DNA from: Phycisphaerae bacterium
GTDB lineage: Bacteria > Planctomycetota > Phycisphaerae > Sedimentisphaerales > Anaerobacaceae
Direction: 5' to 3'
DNA: 64,000 bases
Assembly (NCBI GenBank): GCA_028714855.1
Contig: JAQTLP010000001.1
Location: 126,572 to 190,571 of the forward strand
Positions 12,376 through 20,298 of the stretch are shown here, one piece after another. The number at the start of each line of letters is the position of its first letter. The stretch's first letter is position 1. The position numbers were made by a program, and so were the translations under genes. Below the pieces are notes generated by a model. That model was not told the DNA's origin, did no database searches, and saw nothing but the letters and a program-made list of their open reading frames with translations.

Positions 12376-12933
12376 GTGCTTGTGGAGAGGGTAAAAACGG
12401 AATCTGTGCCGCCGGCCAATGTAGCCCGCGCGGCAGAAATCTTCTCGAAATATGAAGATTTTATCCGTACGGTTATTTGTTACCATGTCAAAAATGATGC
12501 CCAGGCGGATGATTTGCTCCAGGATTTCTTCCTTTCTCTTGTTTCCAAGCCCATCCCCGCAAATATTCATAATGTCAAAGGCTATCTTTATAAGGCGATA
12601 ACCAACGATATCGTTGACGCCGTTCGCCGGGTAGAGAAGTACAAAACTCGAATGGGCAAATATGCTGAATGTTTTAATTATTCGGTCAACAACAACGAGC
12701 CGGAAAACGCCTTAATTGAAATAGAGCAAACAAATGAGATGTTCAGACTCATCAAGGGGTGTTTACGATATAGTGAAGCTCAGGCGATTACTTTGCGATA
12801 CAAAAACAGTTATAATATCGAAGAGGCAGCAAAAAAGATGAATGTTAATAATAGAACCATCAGCAGATATATCTCCACAGGGTTAAATAAAGTCCGTCAG
12901 TTTTTAATAGTAAAACAAGGTGATTTAGAATGA
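12376..12933 (+). CDS. ECF-type RNA polymerase sigma factor
   Basis: A 185-residue sigma-70 family protein of extracytoplasmic-function size. Region 2 lies at about residues 25-95 (DDLLQDFFLSLV and VKGYLYKAITNDIVDAVRR) and region 4 at about 125-180 (LRYSEAQAITLRYKNSYNIE, then AAKKMNVNNRTISRYI as the helix-turn-helix). Regions 1 and 3 are absent, as expected. The start is a GTG after a weak TGGAG; a second in-frame GTG is at 12382. Its stop overlaps the next gene's start in an ATGA (12930-12933), implying translational coupling to its anti-sigma partner. Confidence 0.9.
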   Translation: MLVERVKTESVPPANVARAAEIFSKYEDFIRTVICYHVKNDAQADDLLQDFFLSLVSKPIPANIHNVKGYLYKAITNDIVDAVRRVEKYKTRMGKYAECFNYSVNNNEPENALIEIEQTNEMFRLIKGCLRYSEAQAITLRYKNSYNIEEAAKKMNVNNRTISRYISTGLNKVRQFLIVKQGDLE

Positions 12934-14606
12934 TTACTCACAGTCCTAAATCGTTATGCAAGGAAGCTGAGTTGTATTACTATGATTTTCTCTATGATGA
13001 AAGCCGCAGACTTATTCCAGAACCTATCATTAGCCACATTGAGCAATGCTTGCCTTGCCGGGAACAGATAAACCATCTTGAAGCGGCGTTATTGCAAGCC
13101 GATGGTCTTGAATCGGGGCGTGTACGAGTCAGTCCTGCGGTTGCCACAATGCTGGAACTTCATTTTGCTTATACCGGCAAGCCTGTGACCTGCAATATTG
13201 CAAAACCTTTTCTGCCGACCCTGCCAGACCAAGTCTTGGGGATACATATACCAACACCGATAGTAGCGCATGTGTGCGATTGTCAACAGTGCTCTGAAGA
13301 TTTAGATGTAATTCGATGTCTCAATCTCAGGCATGAACAATTATGCCGGTTAAGCCGGCTTTTTGCAGATAAATCTGCCGGGAGTAATATCAGCTGCACA
13401 GAAGCCCAAAATGCTATCCCTTCGATTATATCAATGGCTTTTAGTGAAACCGATTCGGAAGTCTTAAAACACTTGTGCACGTGCCCAGTCTGCCGAAAAC
13501 TGGTTTATAAAGAGCGACAAAAATTCTGCGACAGTTTGCCGGAGTACGTTCCATCTCCGGGACTTCCCTGCGAGTCAGTTTCGGCAAGCGATTTTTTCGA
13601 TTATGTCATACCATACGGAATTGATCCGGCCAAGGAGCAATACTCTAAATTCAGGGAATCGTTCAGCTCACATGTAACCAATTGCCCAAAATGTCTGGCT
13701 AAAACGCAAGAGCTGCACAAGGCCATATATAGAATTCCCGAACGGGCTGAATCTGACGTCGTTACTATATACCAGATAGATGAATCCGCTAAAACCCAAG
13801 CGGCCAGTGGAACCGAGGAGCTTTATGCCGGTTTTCCCATAAGAGTAGACGTAAAGCAACGCGAAGAAATGAAGACTGAGCAGCCGGTTCCAAATGTTGA
13901 TTTTGCCGCCGCCCTAAAACAAAAGGTCTCAGTAAAAAAATTAAAGCCGTTGCTTAAAACTGCCATTGCTACAGCAGCAGTGATATCCATAGCAGCTGCG
14001 ATGCTGCTCAATATACCAACAGCCAAAGCAGTTACGCTGGAAAGAATCTACAAGGCCATCAAAAAAGCCAGAAATGTCCACACTACAAATTTTGCCCCTG
14101 ATAAGACAAAAATAATACAAGAAACATGGGTGTCGCTTACGTTAAATATTTATCTGTGGAAGTCTGGAAAAGAGCTTGTTCTATTGGATATTCCCAATAA
14201 GGTAAGAAAAGGCAAACAAGCGGACACTGCCGTAACCGAGACAACCCCATTAACTACAGCTTCGGCCGCTGACATCGAGGAAAAAATAACCGGCTCTTTA
14301 GGGTTAATGCCTTATGCCATATCCGACGTTCCTGAAGACGCCGTATGGAGCCACGTCGCTGACTTAGCAGACATTACTAAAAGCATCGAAGTATATGATT
14401 TGACGTGGACCGACAGAGCTTCCGGCGGCCCTGTCGTGCTCAGGAAGTGGCGGATATTTGCGGATTCCGAGACAAATCTTCCCCGGAGAATAGAGTGGTA
14501 TGTAAAATCGGCCGCTGACAGTGATTATATTGCAACATCCGTGACAACAGTTGAATATTTAAGCAATAGTGAAATGCAGAAAGTTATTAAAGACGCGTCT
14601 TTTTAG
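12930..14606 (+). CDS. Membrane-bound anti-sigma protein with four tandem ZAS zinc-binding motifs
   Basis: A 558-residue protein coupled to the ECF sigma gene. The N-terminal half contains four copies of the zinc-binding anti-sigma pattern Cys...His-x3-Cys-x2-Cys: C10/H36/C40/C43, C88/H114/C118/C121, C156/H181/C185/C188 and C214/H248/C252/C255. The usual single-domain anti-sigma factor has one. A single membrane segment follows at about residues 343-362 (TAIATAAVISIAAAMLLNIP), and the remaining 195 residues, presumably periplasmic, resemble LolA-like lipoprotein-sorting folds with WxS and DLTW segments; that assignment is weak. The expected role is to hold the ECF factor at the inner membrane until a periplasmic signal arrives. 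Why four zinc motifs exist is unknown. Confidence 0.85.
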   Translation: MITHSPKSLCKEAELYYYDFLYDESRRLIPEPIISHIEQCLPCREQINHLEAALLQADGLESGRVRVSPAVATMLELHFAYTGKPVTCNIAKPFLPTLPDQVLGIHIPTPIVAHVCDCQQCSEDLDVIRCLNLRHEQLCRLSRLFADKSAGSNISCTEAQNAIPSIISMAFSETDSEVLKHLCTCPVCRKLVYKERQKFCDSLPEYVPSPGLPCESVSASDFFDYVIPYGIDPAKEQYSKFRESFSSHVTNCPKCLAKTQELHKAIYRIPERAESDVVTIYQIDESAKTQAASGTEELYAGFPIRVDVKQREEMKTEQPVPNVDFAAALKQKVSVKKLKPLLKTAIATAAVISIAAAMLLNIPTAKAVTLERIYKAIKKARNVHTTNFAPDKTKIIQETWVSLTLNIYLWKSGKELVLLDIPNKVRKGKQADTAVTETTPLTTASAADIEEKITGSLGLMPYAISDVPEDAVWSHVADLADITKSIEVYDLTWTDRASGGPVVLRKWRIFADSETNLPRRIEWYVKSAADSDYIATSVTTVEYLSNSEMQKVIKDASF

Positions 14607-14618
14607 AACAGCGGCATT

Positions 14619-15419
14619 TTATTTCGGCACCCAAAGGGGCTTTTTGTTTTTATAGTCAACGCCCGTCTTCTCAACAAACAAGTCTTTAGCTTTTGTTAAA
14701 CTGACATGACCATCCGCAAATCCGACATTCACGGTTTTACGCGGATGCCGGCCGTCTATGGCATCGGGTTTTTGGTCGGGCCATAAATCTTTTCTTTCAT
14801 TAATCCAAAGACCGGGTACATAAGCAGTATCTTCGATTGCACCTTTGCTAAGAACCACAGGAGGCTCATCTACCGCATTCCACCAGCTTATTATACTATA
14901 GCCGCTGTCAACGATAAGCAGGGTGCTGGCGGGACGCGGCATATCACTGCTTCGCAAGGGCGTTCCAACAAATTCCGCCATACGGCTTTGTTTGTCATCA
15001 GTACCCTTGCATATAGAACGGTTCACGCCATAATTGCCGCAAAGGACATTGTTTTTGAACTTGGTACCTCTCAGACGTTTGGACGGGCATAATGCCACCG
15101 TTCTGGCCTTGTTGGCATTGCTGTAATAATCTTCCAACTGGTTAAACCACCACCATCCCGGTCTATCATATGACCTGTATCCCGGGTAGCCGCCCGTTGG
15201 CGGGTCTTTAGGCGAGCTGTCGAGGCCGTAAGGAAGGTTTTGATTTTCCAGTTCGTAACTAAACATGCCCTTCAGTAACTGACTAATATTCGAGCCGCAA
15301 ACGGCTACTTCAGCCTGCTTCCTGGAAAGCCGCAACGCCGGCAATAATAGAGCCGCAAGCATCGCAATTATCGCAATTGTCACAAGCACTTCAATGATTG
15401 TAAAAGCGGAACGCCTCAT
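14619..15419 (-). CDS. Pseudopilin-like protein with prepilin cleavage/methylation motif
   Basis: A 266-residue protein. It starts with MRRSAFTIIEVLVTIAIIAM, the type IV prepilin N-terminus: short basic leader, phenylalanine at the cleavage site, glutamate at +5 and a hydrophobic helix. The leader has Ala where the usual Gly precedes the cleavage site (SA|FTIIE). The C-terminal part has the GRHP...GFADGHVSL element, close to the H-x9-DG prepilin-associated motif common in planctomycetes; here the spacing is ten. Four cysteines are present. Such proteins are abundant in planctomycete genomes and are surface or pseudopilus-like; the exact role is unknown. It is convergent with the anti-sigma gene (12-bp gap) and is separated from the upstream secreted protease-like gene by a terminator. 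Confidence 0.85.
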   Translation of the reverse strand: MRRSAFTIIEVLVTIAIIAMLAALLLPALRLSRKQAEVAVCGSNISQLLKGMFSYELENQNLPYGLDSSPKDPPTGGYPGYRSYDRPGWWWFNQLEDYYSNANKARTVALCPSKRLRGTKFKNNVLCGNYGVNRSICKGTDDKQSRMAEFVGTPLRSSDMPRPASTLLIVDSGYSIISWWNAVDEPPVVLSKGAIEDTAYVPGLWINERKDLWPDQKPDAIDGRHPRKTVNVGFADGHVSLTKAKDLFVEKTGVDYKNKKPLWVPK

Positions 15420-15530: not shown

Positions 15531-17336
15531 TCAGGCACATGCCTGCATATAATAATACGTCCATTCGCCCGTATCTGTACAGTTGCCTGGTTCTCCAGGA
15601 ACTTCCATACAGGGTGACTTTCGGTACCTGGGCATTGGGTACTGGTAGCAGTTTCCGCTCGCGGCAACTCCACAGCCCAGTCGCGTGAAGAACTCCCTGC
15701 ATTCGCCACCACATCCGCCAGCATAGACGCAGTATATAATATACCATTCCTGTTTTAGCAGGTTGCATTTATAGCCGGAGGCCCCTATGATATTACGAAG
15801 CTCGCTTTCGTCGATTTCGGCAAACTCGCCTTTTATAGCGTCTTCAGTATTGGAAATCAAAATCGCTATGCCACCGATCCAATCCTCCGGAAAGGAGTCA
15901 ATATCTGTCCGACAGTAGAATTGGTTGCTGGCCAAATCCACCGTCCAGACATATTTAGCATCAATTGTCTCAAGAGCAACAAAATGTTTTCTGCCGGGTA
16001 TATGCAGGATTGCCTTGCAATCGTGCAACTTCTTCAGCGTCTGGACATCGGTCTTGACAGCCCTGCAGTGAAGGCCCATGCCTTGTGCAAATTGCTTCAT
16101 TTCATAAAGATTTGTGGATTTATCCGGCCCATTTACCAGCTGAGCGAACTGTTGGTCTGTGATATTTTTACCCAACTGCGAAGTAATATATTTTAATGCT
16201 GCCGTTGCGCAGTTCCTGGGTTGTGCACTTTCAGAAGCTGCATAAGCCAATCTTTCGGTTAAGAGCAGATTTGTATCGACTCCCTGTGAGTAACGATACG
16301 TTTCCGACTTACCGCCGCTAAGAGAAAAACGCTCTATCAATGCATCGGCTTCATAGATGACCTCGAAATCGTAACTTTCAGGAGCATTCGAATCTATACT
16401 GGTAATATCCCACAAGTCACGAGCCAATAATCTTTTTGACCCGGTTTCGTACTGCTCCAGCAAAATGGTGAATGGAATCCAACCGCCGGCTGTCAACTGA
16501 TAGTTGGAGTATTGTTTGGAGGAAATGACAACACCATCCCTGCTTGTTAGACAGGATATTACGGCGTAATCCTTTTGCGGGTCCATTACAAACTCCATTT
16601 GCAGGCCATCAGGATTATTAAGCGTTAGACTTATTTGTGTTTGGCCATTAATTTGCTTTTCTATCGCAACAGCGTCCGCAGCGGCGAGATTATCGTATGA
16701 ATAAAAGCCGTATCCCCAAGGAATCAAACCTGCTGTCAGCGACCCGTTGACAACATGGGGGATACGGCCTGTCGTATCAACGATGGCGTGATTGCCGGGC
16801 AGAAAATAAGTGGTATATTTTTCACCGTCCCAAGCGAATATACGTCTGGCATTCCAGTCCAAGTTAAACTGCTCGGTCATATAATTACCGGCCAGTTCTT
16901 TGCCGGGCCTTACTGAATCTGTGCGCGAATTTACGTTGATTTCCCAGTAAAATCTGTCTCCATCGAACTTTACAATGACTTTCGAACTCATCGTATATTC
17001 GTTGGACAATCTGTATCGAGTATTAAACGGCTCGGCATCAAGTCTCATTTTTTGCAACTCTTCCGTAAGCTCTCTTTTGTTCGGGCTGTCCTGATATTGC
17101 TGAATATCTTTGTTGATTTGGTCATTGACCATATCTGCGTCCATCATTTTCGGGGCTCTGTATTCTTCGTGTGCTGCCTCAATCGTCCCTGCGGGTATCC
17201 AGGTCTTTCTTGGCTGGTTTGTTATTTTTTGAAAGATTTGTAAAATTTCCTTTCTTTCCAAGGGCCTGTCTGCAAAAGCAGCACCACTAACAAACAATAA
17301 AAAAACTGCTATCGACATAAAATTTCTTGTCTTCAT
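15531..17336 (-). CDS. Secreted protein: LolA-like region, C39 peptidase domain, double-glycine-leader-like segment and Cys-rich tail
   Basis: A 601-residue protein with signal peptide (MKTRNFMSIAVFLLFVSGAA, cleavage near AFA22). Residues 24 to about 360 look like an outer-membrane lipoprotein-sorting (LolA-like) beta fold. Residues about 370-495 fit a C39 cysteine peptidase with C376 (PRNCATAAL), H451 (GRKHFVALE) and D467 (VWTVDLAS). Residues 508-519 (IDESELRNIIGA) match the double-glycine leader consensus exactly in position: hydrophobic at -12, E-L at -8/-7, I at -4, G-A at -2/-1. The 82-residue tail after it has nine cysteines, including AGGCGGEC. C39 domains normally cut bacteriocin leaders after GG in a separate peptide; here enzyme and leader-like site are in one chain. 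A terminator follows. The domain calls are mine; the processing is a hypothesis. Confidence 0.72.
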   Translation of the reverse strand: MKTRNFMSIAVFLLFVSGAAFADRPLERKEILQIFQKITNQPRKTWIPAGTIEAAHEEYRAPKMMDADMVNDQINKDIQQYQDSPNKRELTEELQKMRLDAEPFNTRYRLSNEYTMSSKVIVKFDGDRFYWEINVNSRTDSVRPGKELAGNYMTEQFNLDWNARRIFAWDGEKYTTYFLPGNHAIVDTTGRIPHVVNGSLTAGLIPWGYGFYSYDNLAAADAVAIEKQINGQTQISLTLNNPDGLQMEFVMDPQKDYAVISCLTSRDGVVISSKQYSNYQLTAGGWIPFTILLEQYETGSKRLLARDLWDITSIDSNAPESYDFEVIYEADALIERFSLSGGKSETYRYSQGVDTNLLLTERLAYAASESAQPRNCATAALKYITSQLGKNITDQQFAQLVNGPDKSTNLYEMKQFAQGMGLHCRAVKTDVQTLKKLHDCKAILHIPGRKHFVALETIDAKYVWTVDLASNQFYCRTDIDSFPEDWIGGIAILISNTEDAIKGEFAEIDESELRNIIGASGYKCNLLKQEWYIIYCVYAGGCGGECREFFTRLGCGVAASGNCYQYPMPRYRKSPCMEVPGEPGNCTDTGEWTYYYMQACA

Positions 17337-17578
17337 GATTATCTCCTTCTCTTAAATTCAGGCTGGTAAAATTTATTTAGCAACCAGACTCTTGTTGTCG
17401 GGACAATTGCTAAAAGTCTTTCTGTAGAGAAGGCGATTGTGAAACAGGAGATGTGGATTGCTTTCCGCCAAGTTTATCGAAATTAACCTGCAAAAAAACA
17501 AACATTCAGGTGGAATGCAGCACCGTTGCCATGCGATTTGGAGGGCACCTGCAACAAAAGTATTACAGACGAGTCCTG

Positions 17579-18250
17579 TTATTCGGCCTTTTCAAGCCAG
17601 AATTCGCAAAATAGTCTTAAGTCATTGAAGTCGACGTTCCCGTCAATATCAAGGTCTGCTCCCTGACACCAGCCGGGCTCGTTACAGCCTGTTTGCAGCC
17701 AGTGGGAGGCGAGTATTGCATAATCATTAAAATCAACTTTGGTGTCTTGATCTAAGTCTGGTCGGACATGGTTAAAGATAAGAGTATAAAGCGGCTCGGT
17801 TGTACTCACGTCGTAATTATAGAATTCAACGTTGCAGTAACCTGTATCTACAGCATTATAATCAATAATGAACCAGTCACCCGCATCCGGGTCTTCACCT
17901 CCATAGAAATCAAACCCGAAACCGGGATATTCGATTTTCACCACATAAGCAAAGTCACCGGCAGCAGGCAAACAAGAGCCGGGACACTCATATCCATTAC
18001 AATCTCTTCCGTATAAAATATTTGTATCTTCCGTGACCAGAGCGCCGCCATACCACTCCTCAGCAACATCCGAACTGACAATAATCGTCAGTTTGGTCTC
18101 AACCATAACATCCCGGTATACGAAGGGGATACAGGGATCGGCTAATTCAAGGGGTGTGCTGCCATCAGAAAGGCATACTCTTGTCGAAACCTCTCCTGCC
18201 GCCATTGAGGTAATGCCAAAAAATAACATAAAGGCTATTATCTTTTTCAT
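17579..18250 (-). CDS. Secreted protein with C-terminal dockerin-type repeats
   Basis: A 223-residue protein. It has a signal peptide (MKKIIAFMLFFGITSMAAGE) and an uncharacterised beta-rich, Cys-containing body (residues about 22-165). At the C-terminus two calcium-binding dockerin-type repeats appear: DLDQDTKVDFNDYAILASHW and DLDIDGNVDFNDLRLFCEFW, each with the D-x-D-x-D/N-F-N-D loop. In planctomycetes such repeats are common on secreted proteins and need not indicate a cellulosome. It lies 242 bp upstream of, and on the same strand as, the C39-fusion gene, with no recognised terminator or promoter between, so cotranscription is possible but not shown. Confidence 0.85.
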   Translation of the reverse strand: MKKIIAFMLFFGITSMAAGEVSTRVCLSDGSTPLELADPCIPFVYRDVMVETKLTIIVSSDVAEEWYGGALVTEDTNILYGRDCNGYECPGSCLPAAGDFAYVVKIEYPGFGFDFYGGEDPDAGDWFIIDYNAVDTGYCNVEFYNYDVSTTEPLYTLIFNHVRPDLDQDTKVDFNDYAILASHWLQTGCNEPGWCQGADLDIDGNVDFNDLRLFCEFWLEKAE

Positions 18251-18780
18251 AATTTATTCTCCCACAAAAAAGTTGTTCTTGTCAAAGCGAACACAGTATA
18301 AAACTAAAATGCTACTGCCGAGAAAAGTACAAAACGCCTAATTGTCATCCATCATCAGCCCCTCATGCAAATGTGACAACATTCTGCACAACTCTTTCAC
18401 ATAAATCAATGGAATAAAAAAACTATGGTGCTCACAGACTTAAAAATCGCTTTTTAAGCTGGTATGGTATTTGCTATTACGTATTCGTATACGAATTAAT
18501 GTAATATTATTACGTATACGTATTACGAAGACACTCATTCGTAAGCGGAGCGAAATCGTACAAGGAGGTGCGGGGGAAAATTGAGAGTAAATTTCAATCA
18601 AAAGCGAGGGTAGGCAGACAGCAAAACCGGAAATTTCGAAAAGATTTTTACTGCTTTTGTCGTAATAAGTTAGCTCAAAAAGCACAAATCAGACAAGCAT
18701 TTTTTTCGCATCAAACGCGCAAGTCCCTCCAATTGCAGAGACAGCAAAAAAAGCGATATCTCGGAAAATTGGAGCTTAAT
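18251..18780. other. Intergenic region before the phage module
   Basis: About 530 bp without a convincing gene. It holds two dyads with a CGTATACG core (annotated separately) and an AAGGAGG at 18562-18568. A GTG at 18568 is in frame with the portal gene and would add 71 residues, but that extension is Lys/Arg/Gln-rich low-complexity sequence and the GTG overlaps the Shine-Dalgarno-like motif, so I treat it as noncoding. Confidence 0.5.
18483..18522. promoter_or_regulatory. Two palindromes sharing the core CGTATACG
   Basis: A perfect 14-bp palindrome attcgtatacgaat lies at 18483-18496 and a perfect 12-bp palindrome tacgtatacgta at 18511-18522. The identical 8-bp cores start 27 bp apart. The arrangement resembles a pair of operators for a dimeric regulator ahead of the phage head genes. 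No promoter could be placed with confidence. Confidence 0.5.
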
Positions 18781-20298
18781 ATGGGATTCGACCTCAGCAT
18801 TTTCAAAGACCCACAATTTGAGAGCGATTATGTCGAGTGGCTCGTTGATGAGCAATCGGCAGATATTCAGACGCACTTTTCAAAACTGTGGGAATACTAT
18901 GCAAACCGGATGATAGAGAGCGATAGCTCGGGGATTTCTGACAAACGAGCAAGCGAATCGGGACGGTGCTACGTTCAGGCACAAGAACACGGGCTGCCTC
19001 CGAGGATAACAGGGGTTGTACACTCAGTAAATGCAGGAATTTTCGGCGCACGGTCAATCAAAGACGTGCAGCGGAAAGAAGTGGTGATAGAAAACGATAT
19101 CGCGTGGCGAATAAATGCGGCGGTGGATTTTTTGTTCGGCAAACCAATAAGTTTTATAAGCCGGGCGCCGGACGGCCTTAAACGAGCAGAAATTGAATCT
19201 ATATTGAAGGCTGTGTTTGAGGCCAATGGCGCTATCGGCTTTTTTCAGGATATGGCGGTGCTTGGAAGCGTCTATGGTTTTGTCGATTGTATTGTCAGGC
19301 CTGGCAGTGAGATTTTAGAGCAATTCACTTCTTCTTCCTCCCAAACTCTCCCGTTCAACAATGTGCTGCAATTAGCACAAACAATCGGCTTAGAACTTAT
19401 CGAGGCGCCAAGAGCACTGCCTGTTCTGGAAGAAAACGACTATAAAAAAATCAGATATTACGTTCAGCATTTCTACCAGAAGAGAAACGCGATCAACAAG
19501 AAAAGCTCTTTTCTGGCAAGGCTATTGCTGCAAGGCAAACGGAGCGGTGACAGCCGGGAGACGATTGCAGTGACGGAAATTATTTCGGCAACAGGGTGGC
19601 AGAGGTATGAGAACAAACAACTTGCGGGAGAAGGCGAATTGCCCTGGGGATTTTTGCCGGTGGTGCATATCCAAAATATCGCTCAGCCATATTACTACGA
19701 AGGCCTAAGCGATGTTGAGCCGTTAATACCGCTGCAGGATGAGCTTAATACAAGATTGAGTGACAGGGCAAGCAGGATTACGTTCCAGTCGTTTAAGATG
19801 TATTTAGGCAAAGGGATAGAAGGCTTCGAGGACAGACCCGTCTCGCCGGGCATGATGTGGTACACCGATAATCCGGAGGCAACTATCGAAGAGTTCGGCG
19901 GAGACGCAACAACACCGAGTGAAGACCTGCACATTGCGGAAATTAGAGAAGCGATGGACAAAGCCAGCGGGGTGACGCCAGTGGTAGCCGGGGTTTTGAA
20001 GAATAAGCTCGGCAACCTTACAAGTGCAGTGGCCCTTAAACTTACGCTTATGGGGATGCTCTCAAAGAACGAACGAAAGAGATTCAGTTACAGCGACGGC
20101 CTCAAAAGAATCTGCAAGATGGTTCTGGATATACTCGACGGGGCTAATATTTACAGGACCGATGCTGCTGATAGAGAGATAGATATTATTTTCTCCAACC
20201 CTCTACCCGAAGATACGATGGAAAAGCTAAAGGAAGCAGAGATTAAAAAAGAGTTGGGCGTACCAACTGAGCAGGTGCTCAAAGAGTTAGGTTATTAA
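18781..20298 (+). CDS. Phage portal protein (SPP1 gp6-like)
   Basis: About 505 residues from ATG 18781, preceded by TTGGAGC. The sequence fits the SPP1 Gp6-type portal family: DIAWRINAAVDFLFGKPISF is the characteristic N-terminal block, LNTRLSDRASRITFQSFKMY and KASGVTPVVAGVLKNKLGNL lie in the central and crown regions, and the C-terminus has SNPLPEDTMEKLKEAEIKKE. By family knowledge twelve copies form the DNA entry ring at one capsid vertex. No terminase gene precedes it, although terminase normally lies directly upstream. It starts a six-gene rightward module. A longer GTG start at 18568 is possible but looks unlikely. Confidence 0.85.
   Translation: MGFDLSIFKDPQFESDYVEWLVDEQSADIQTHFSKLWEYYANRMIESDSSGISDKRASESGRCYVQAQEHGLPPRITGVVHSVNAGIFGARSIKDVQRKEVVIENDIAWRINAAVDFLFGKPISFISRAPDGLKRAEIESILKAVFEANGAIGFFQDMAVLGSVYGFVDCIVRPGSEILEQFTSSSSQTLPFNNVLQLAQTIGLELIEAPRALPVLEENDYKKIRYYVQHFYQKRNAINKKSSFLARLLLQGKRSGDSRETIAVTEIISATGWQRYENKQLAGEGELPWGFLPVVHIQNIAQPYYYEGLSDVEPLIPLQDELNTRLSDRASRITFQSFKMYLGKGIEGFEDRPVSPGMMWYTDNPEATIEEFGGDATTPSEDLHIAEIREAMDKASGVTPVVAGVLKNKLGNLTSAVALKLTLMGMLSKNERKRFSYSDGLKRICKMVLDILDGANIYRTDAADREIDIIFSNPLPEDTMEKLKEAEIKKELGVPTEQVLKELGY

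Follow-up and report, generated by a model that had tools for sequence, protein, structure and literature searches.

Descriptions of ZAS anti-sigma factors give each protein a single zinc module. In these proteins the fourth ligand, a Cys (CHCC motif) or a His, lies 23–26 residues before H-x3-C-x2-C, and they are encoded 3' of an ECF sigma factor gene, as set out in PMC4960319. Class I anti-sigma domains (ASDs), as characterised in PMC7406223, bind the sigma4 domain through a three-helix bundle and sigma2 through a fourth helix. The survey in that paper took one ASD per protein, the highest-scoring match, so arrays could not show there, and terms for tandem, double, multiple or duplicated ASDs are absent from its main text. 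Among the matches listed by searches of open-access papers, we likewise saw no account of ZAS or anti-sigma domains arranged in tandem. Here we analyse a locus of a Phycisphaerae bacterium that encodes four predicted modules of this kind in one chain with a putative membrane anchor. It lies in a 64,000-nucleotide stretch of contig JAQTLP010000001.1, which we refer to as the window.

Results

The features of the gene pair in the window are as follows.

12376–12933, + strand: ECF sigma factor gene, 185 aa, GTG start, presumed partner (Pfam Sigma70_r2 E 3.7e-7 and r4 E 3.7e-6; NCBIfam sigma70-ECF E 1.9e-16)
12930–14606, + strand: anti-sigma factor gene, 558 aa, with four ZAS units, a membrane segment and a LolA/RseB-like domain (motifs, homologues, models)
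12957–13058, + strand: ZAS unit 1, C10-H36-C40-C43, distance 26 (four ligands kept in 21/21 rows)
13134–13166, + strand: helix 69–79 beyond the low-confidence linker 55–67, read as the probable fourth helix of unit 1 (AF2 model; role by analogy to the class I ASD of PMC7406223)
13191–13292, + strand: ZAS unit 2, C88-H114-C118-C121, distance 26, signature PFLPxL..PTPIT (four ligands kept in 21/21 rows)
13395–13493, + strand: ZAS unit 3, C156-H181-C185-C188, distance 25, extra Cys183 (ligands kept in 18, 18, 18 and 17 of the 18 rows having the unit)
13569–13694, + strand: ZAS unit 4, C214-H248-C252-C255, distance 34 (ligands kept in 16, 18, 18 and 18 of the 18 rows having the unit)
13950–14015, + strand: single hydrophobic segment, about residues 341–362 (hydropathy scan)
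14016–14603, + strand: extracytoplasmic domain of LolA/LprG/RseB-like fold (AF2 and VIA-align)

The initial annotation had read this locus as four Cys...His-x3-Cys-x2-Cys motifs with spacings of 26, 26, 25 and 34, placed before a single membrane helix and coupled by ATGA to one ECF sigma gene. All four units are indeed of the CHCC type, and the ligand positions listed above match these Cys-His distances exactly. A hydropathy scan, carried out on a copy of the ORF without the C-terminal domain, finds one hydrophobic segment near residue 341, and the TGA of the ECF gene overlaps the ATG of the anti-sigma gene as ATGA. Chance occurrence of the motifs is ruled out by the conservation of the ligands among homologues together with a shuffle test: 20,000 shuffles of residues 1–340, which hold 17 Cys and 10 His, gave a mean of 0.024 copies of H-x3-C-x2-C and a maximum of 2, as opposed to the 4 observed.

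Profile searches with the window protein itself return little. It has no Pfam family even at E 10 and so lies below the curated cut-off of zf-HC2 (PF13490), a model that matches nowhere in the host genome, and the NCBIfam RsrA model gives a weak match to residues 10–48 (E 0.03). The domain call therefore rests on the motif and on the homologues. In the search for repeated zf-HC2 units suggested by the initial annotation, the window protein is unmatched and 15 of the 21 aligned N-termini match at E<=1. Two of ten homologues scanned singly exceed the curated cut-off (L061, 1.9e-8; L069, 6.9e-5), and scans of single units are weak, with zf-HC2 at E<=1 in 2, 3, 9 and 1 of 18 members for units 1–4. 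As for the features that define ZAS proteins, H-x3-C-x2-C is present in four copies, the fourth ligand lies within the 23–26 residue range in units 1–3 and outside it in unit 4, and the gene is downstream of an ECF sigma gene. The predicted protein would work like the ZAS anti-sigma factors and, judged by motif, spacing and gene order, belongs to them; its assignment as one with four ZAS units is well supported.

Every one of 21 aligned N-termini, from the window protein and all 20 loci of named genomes, retains the complete ligand sets of units 1 and 2. For units 3 and 4, each ligand is kept in 16 to 18 of the 18 rows that have these units; in the unit 4 column, a His that the two-unit L071 happens to have there was left uncounted. 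Conservation of Cys and His across the units speaks against only one unit being real, and the possibility raised earlier that homologues keep these residues in a single unit is clearly contradicted by the 21-row alignment. In a second alignment of 24 proteins, which extends down to 25% identity and omits the broken, masked or cut homologues L006, L008, L012, L016, L018 and L019, 16 columns are invariant and 8 of these are the ligands of units 1 and 2. Mean column identity is 69% for unit 2 versus 55% for unit 1, and unit 2 has an invariant signature of its own, PFL..PTP. Unit 3 (13395–13493) contains an extra Cys, giving H-x-C-x-C-x2-C, in 16 of 18 aligned homologues. Profile-profile matches between units range from 95.8% for units 1 and 2 and 93.4% for units 1 and 4 to 72% (3 and 4), 58% (1 and 3), 44% (2 and 4) and 34% (2 and 3), the weaker of which lean largely on the common H-x3-C-x2-C part.

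The AF2 model of the cytoplasmic part (299 aa, 21 sequences) has a mean pLDDT of 79.4 and a pTM of 0.69. All four units share one layout, with the His inside a first helix, the following Cys where that helix breaks and the final Cys within the helix after it: residues 36/40/43 in helices 31–39 and 41–55 (unit 1), 114/118/121 in 110–117 and 119–130 (unit 2), 181/185/188 in 176–184 and 186–202 (unit 3), and 248/252/255 in 239–251 and 253–271 (unit 4). RsrA places its His and Cys residues across a helix break in the same way, according to PMC4960319. At the level of secondary structure, then, all four units are predicted alike, and not just one as the initial annotation had allowed. Behind unit 1 a low-confidence stretch (55–67) leads to helix 69–79, a layout that, in this partner-free prediction, fits a class I anti-sigma domain with its three-helix bundle, linker and fourth helix. 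Such a helix is nearly directly joined at unit 2, and none is evident at units 3 and 4. Residues 68–284 are mostly of high confidence and are separated from unit 1 by the low-confidence linker. The model matched no anti-sigma structure (best Foldseek E 2.2; best VIA-align Z 3.4), and a profile search of PDB sequences with the cytoplasmic part gave chance matches only; for modules this short and helical, such searches carry little information.

The number of units varies among relatives. Of 50 loci, some of them redundant, 30 have a main ORF with four motifs, 7 one with three and 12 one with two; a single locus, a C-terminal fragment, has none, and exactly one motif is found at no locus. The three-motif loci are of several kinds. 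Unit 3 can still be recognised in L010/L059 (Tyr in place of the last Cys of unit 3) and L013 despite its broken motif, unit 4 is present without a clear unit 3 in L024 and L025, L016 is spread over different frames, and the frame of L018 lacks unit 1. On a tree of ECF plus outer-domain sequences, built from 29 of 35 deduplicated loci, motif number changes at least 7 times, and the two-unit L020 is sister to the four-unit L061 with full support. Since unit number varies and units 1 and 2 are constant, these two form the core of the array. In L006 and L056, a four-unit homologue has a TAG stop in the outer domain, either an assembly error or a pseudogene.

The genome of L062 encodes a second four-unit protein (L102) and a protein cut by the contig end, L103:3651-5426, which has at least 7 ZAS units and adjoins two ECF genes. 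Unit profiles read its array as U1-U2-U3-U4-U2-U3-U4. Its N-terminus (L103:3651-3890) looks like the sigma2 region of an ECF factor, at E 1.8e-6 in a one-sequence search, and is perhaps what remains of an ECF gene fused to the array.

An ECF gene adjoins the anti-sigma ORF in 45 of the 50 loci. The five without an intact ECF match are L013 and L019, which are cut, L014 and L063, which are identical in sequence and have a broken ECF frame, and L067. In the last (L067:3997-6671), an intact four-unit homologue has a WYL regulator directly upstream in place of the ECF gene, and the only ECF factor found in that genome is 26% identical. Over 17 loci, distances between ECF sequences correlate with those of units 1–4 at 0.63, 0.72, 0.35 and 0.54, and at 0.41, 0.48, 0.07 and 0.22 as partial correlations given the outer C-terminal domain. 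This is weak evidence, as the 17 loci (among them L010 with its degenerate unit 3) are related, and no p value is given because the sequences are not independent. A varying number of units, the constancy of the first two and a looser co-divergence of units 3 and 4 with the ECF factor suggest that units 3 and 4 are accessory modules rather than equal partners.

The same data bear on how many units touch the sigma factor. Unit 1 might do so alone, with units 2–4 serving mainly as a structural body or as a docking site for another partner. The classical linker and fourth helix at unit 1 alone, the mostly confident block set apart behind that linker and the private signature of unit 2 would all accord with this. 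Unit 2, however, is never absent where the N-terminus is intact, and its co-divergence with the ECF factor is as strong as that of unit 1; we regard contact by unit 1 alone as a tentative, somewhat doubtful alternative. Another alternative is a multivalent store, in which at least two units each hold one copy of the same ECF sigma factor for joint or stepwise release. Four complete CHCC motifs are kept under selection, and the longest array lies beside two ECF genes, as such a store might predict. We nevertheless consider it unlikely: the repeated changes in unit number leave a single ECF gene in place, unit 3 is almost without co-divergence beyond that of the C-terminal domain, and a separate linker and fourth helix are predicted at unit 1 only. 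A bolder version, likewise improbable in our estimate, is a variable-length sigma-factor magazine: a membrane-tethered array of anti-sigma modules in which units are added or multiplied (two, three, four or at least seven, the block of units 2-3-4 recurring) under the control of a fused RseB-like envelope sensor. If this were true, unit number would set the number of sigma molecules stored or the sharpness of their release.

For the four copies, the initial annotation had proposed that they could hold several sigma factors, give graded redox or zinc sensing, or be decoys. Its reading of an anti-sigma factor with four ZAS units stands; the holding of several different sigma factors does not fare as well. 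The host genome has 13 Sigma70_r2 matches, 9 of them ECF-like. In eight of these nine, the window pair among them, the next ORF has one hydrophobic segment or more; the ninth itself encodes three such segments. More than one motif per protein would suit the retention of several different ECF factors of the cell, but that idea is disfavoured, and to our minds very improbable, because the other ECF genes have membrane partners of their own or span the membrane themselves.

Outside the membrane, the protein continues into a domain that the initial annotation missed, along with the conserved gene cassette described below. The AF2 model of this domain (196 aa) has a mean pLDDT of 89.8 and a pTM of 0.84. 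VIA-align ranks LolA-like 4mxt (Z 10.5), LprG 3mha (Z 10.5) and RseB 2v43 (Z 10.2) on top, with superpositions of 4.2–4.3 A rmsd over 158–164 residues. Scores from Z 10.5 to 8 extend over many LolA, LprG, RseB and MucB entries, which shows a common fold but is no proof of lipid binding. Foldseek alone places ependymin-related proteins and LolA on top, and LolA/RseB-type Pfam families are absent among the 4 families listed for 18 outer domains at E<=1, a set that omits L056, L065 and L070 (internal stop or cut). Nine further loci were found around outer-domain matches. One, L092, is a fragment with a masked N-terminus. The remaining eight encode short proteins, in open frames of 293–368 aa and with a different, zinc-free N-terminus; an ECF match overlaps or adjoins seven of these eight. 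The occurrence of the domain in short zinc-free proteins beside ECF genes fits an interchangeable sensor domain.

Sensing might instead take place in the cytoplasm, with oxidised CHCC sites losing zinc and forming disulfides to give a graded release of the sigma factor independent of any envelope signal. The four units all belong to the CHCC type, RsrA requires its N-terminal Cys for oxidative release (as reported in PMC4960319), and the additional HxCxC Cys of unit 3 recurs in 16/18 rows. On the other hand, zinc motifs of membrane-bound anti-sigma factors may be structural according to PMC7406223, a separate extracytoplasmic domain of sensor-type fold is present, and some relatives lack the ligands of units 3 and 4. 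A cytoplasmic redox or zinc sensor is thus improbable in our assessment.

The anti-sigma gene is followed by convergent genes.

14619–15419, − strand: convergent pseudopilin-like gene (N_methyl), conserved neighbour (domain match; synteny)
15531–17336, − strand: secreted-looking protein with a Peptidase C39 domain and a Cys-rich tail, conserved neighbour (Peptidase_C39 1.1e-14; synteny)
17432–17455, − strand: bipartite element MACATNT-N10-AATCGCC, a candidate ECF promoter ahead of the C39 gene (pattern matching)
17579–18250, − strand: dockerin-like protein, conserved neighbour (Dockerin_1 2.3e-4, just under the cut-off; synteny)

The pseudopilin-like gene follows the anti-sigma gene in 18 of the 20 named loci; in the remaining two (L065, L070) the DNA ends within the anti-sigma gene. 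Where the DNA reaches, the C39-peptidase protein comes next in the named loci, usually with the dockerin-like protein too, and the two-unit L068 and L071 show the same arrangement in part. A WYL regulator lies upstream in six loci (L052, L054, L057, L062, L067 and L069). The C39-peptidase protein (15531–17336), whose gene is syntenic in many relatives and whose C-terminal tail is rich in Cys, could have a role in handling a secreted peptide. A phage portal protein gene at 18568–20298 (phrog_64, 9e-25) directly adjoins the cassette, and a prophage may begin near it.

The bipartite element lies ~95 bases upstream of the C39 start codon and was first picked by eye from 13 upstream regions. It is the sole exact match in the 2.31 Mb genome; with one mismatch the pattern occurs in 11 places, compared with 3 for a reversed control pattern. 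The exact element is found at the corresponding place in 3 of the 12 other upstream regions (L052, L060 and L061), and in other relatives it is a near match, changed, or, in several, missing. That it is an ECF promoter is a guess. No element common to the ECF upstream regions was seen by eye, and autoregulation is therefore not supported.

Searching 61 genomes with the protein, we found relatives in 31, the host genome among them. In a profile search of 392 genomes of the phylum, 16 matched: eight, of the same order, strongly (best E per genome 3e-63 or lower), and eight from outside the order at E 4e-7 to 9e-6. The latter have exactly one H-x3-C-x2-C each in the matching frame and look like ordinary single-unit ZAS proteins. 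Strong homologues are thus confined, among these 392 genomes, to one order of Phycisphaerae. The 20 loci from the named-genome scan are all from MAGs, labelled Phycisphaerae, Phycisphaerales, Sedimentisphaerales, Planctomycetes/Planctomycetota, uncultured planctomycete or uncultured bacterium. Within the host genome, the zinc array and the outer domain each occur once. With four modules here and two to at least 7 in relatives, these proteins form a small branch within the well-known ZAS family, apparently undescribed so far.

Discussion

From the computed repeats, their conservation, the outer-domain fold and the gene linkage, we infer sigma binding, the contacting units, zinc occupancy, the signal, proteolysis and the target as follows. 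The protein would be a membrane-anchored class I (ZAS) anti-sigma factor for the upstream ECF factor, with units 1 and 2 as core, units 3 and 4 as accessory modules, sensing by the outer domain and proteolytic release, a reading to which we assign a probability of roughly 0.6. Units 1 and 2 would be the working core of the cytoplasmic array, and the evidence leans towards these two as the part that binds the sigma factor. Unit 1, with its three-helix bundle, flexible linker and fourth helix, probably grips the sigma4 and sigma2 domains, and unit 2 may strengthen or complete that grip; as unit 2 is the better conserved of the two, the choice of unit 1 as the main grip is a guess. Units 3 and 4 would be accessory modules that can be lost or multiplied without loss of the system. 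The fused LolA/RseB-like domain probably senses the signal on the far side of the membrane. Proteolysis of the membrane segment would release the sigma factor, whose probable target is the adjacent C39-pseudopilin gene set. M50 site-2-type proteases are present in the host genome. Counting against this reading are L067, intact with no adjoining ECF gene, and the lack of a Pfam match to the window protein, and against the promoter part, that the candidate element does not lie upstream of the ECF gene and is missing or changed in several relatives.

Among the closest described systems is the CHCC-type RsrA of Streptomyces, whose Cys11, His37, Cys41 and Cys44 (PMC4960319) parallel C10, H36, C40 and C43 of unit 1 here, and which is likewise encoded after an ECF gene (PMC4960319). 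RsrA, however, is described as a soluble protein of 105 aa with one unit, whereas the protein studied here combines four units with a membrane helix and an outer domain. RslA of M. tuberculosis shares the arrangement of a cytosolic ZAS domain on a membrane-associated protein (PMC2877774) but has one unit, of the HHCC type (PMC4960319), and the account in PMC2877774 mentions no LolA/RseB-like domain such as is present here. The class I ASD groups of PMC7406223 resemble the present units, as modelled, in carrying Hx3Cx2C across helices 2 and 3; the linker and fourth helix that follow there find their counterpart in the prediction for unit 1. With RseA/RseB and MucA/MucB there is a common element in the RseB-type (LolA-like) periplasmic fold within an ECF anti-sigma pathway; RseB and MucB, as presented in PMC7400510, are separate two-domain proteins, in contrast to the single LolA/RseB-like domain fused to the anti-sigma factor here. 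One chain thus joins what are separate proteins in those two systems. Members with two, three, four and at least seven modules, as a rule next to a single ECF gene, make this family a ready-made series for asking what extra anti-sigma modules contribute, be it avidity, storage, sensing or spacing. The repeated array of variable length with a fused LolA/RseB-like domain appears to be new among described ZAS proteins.
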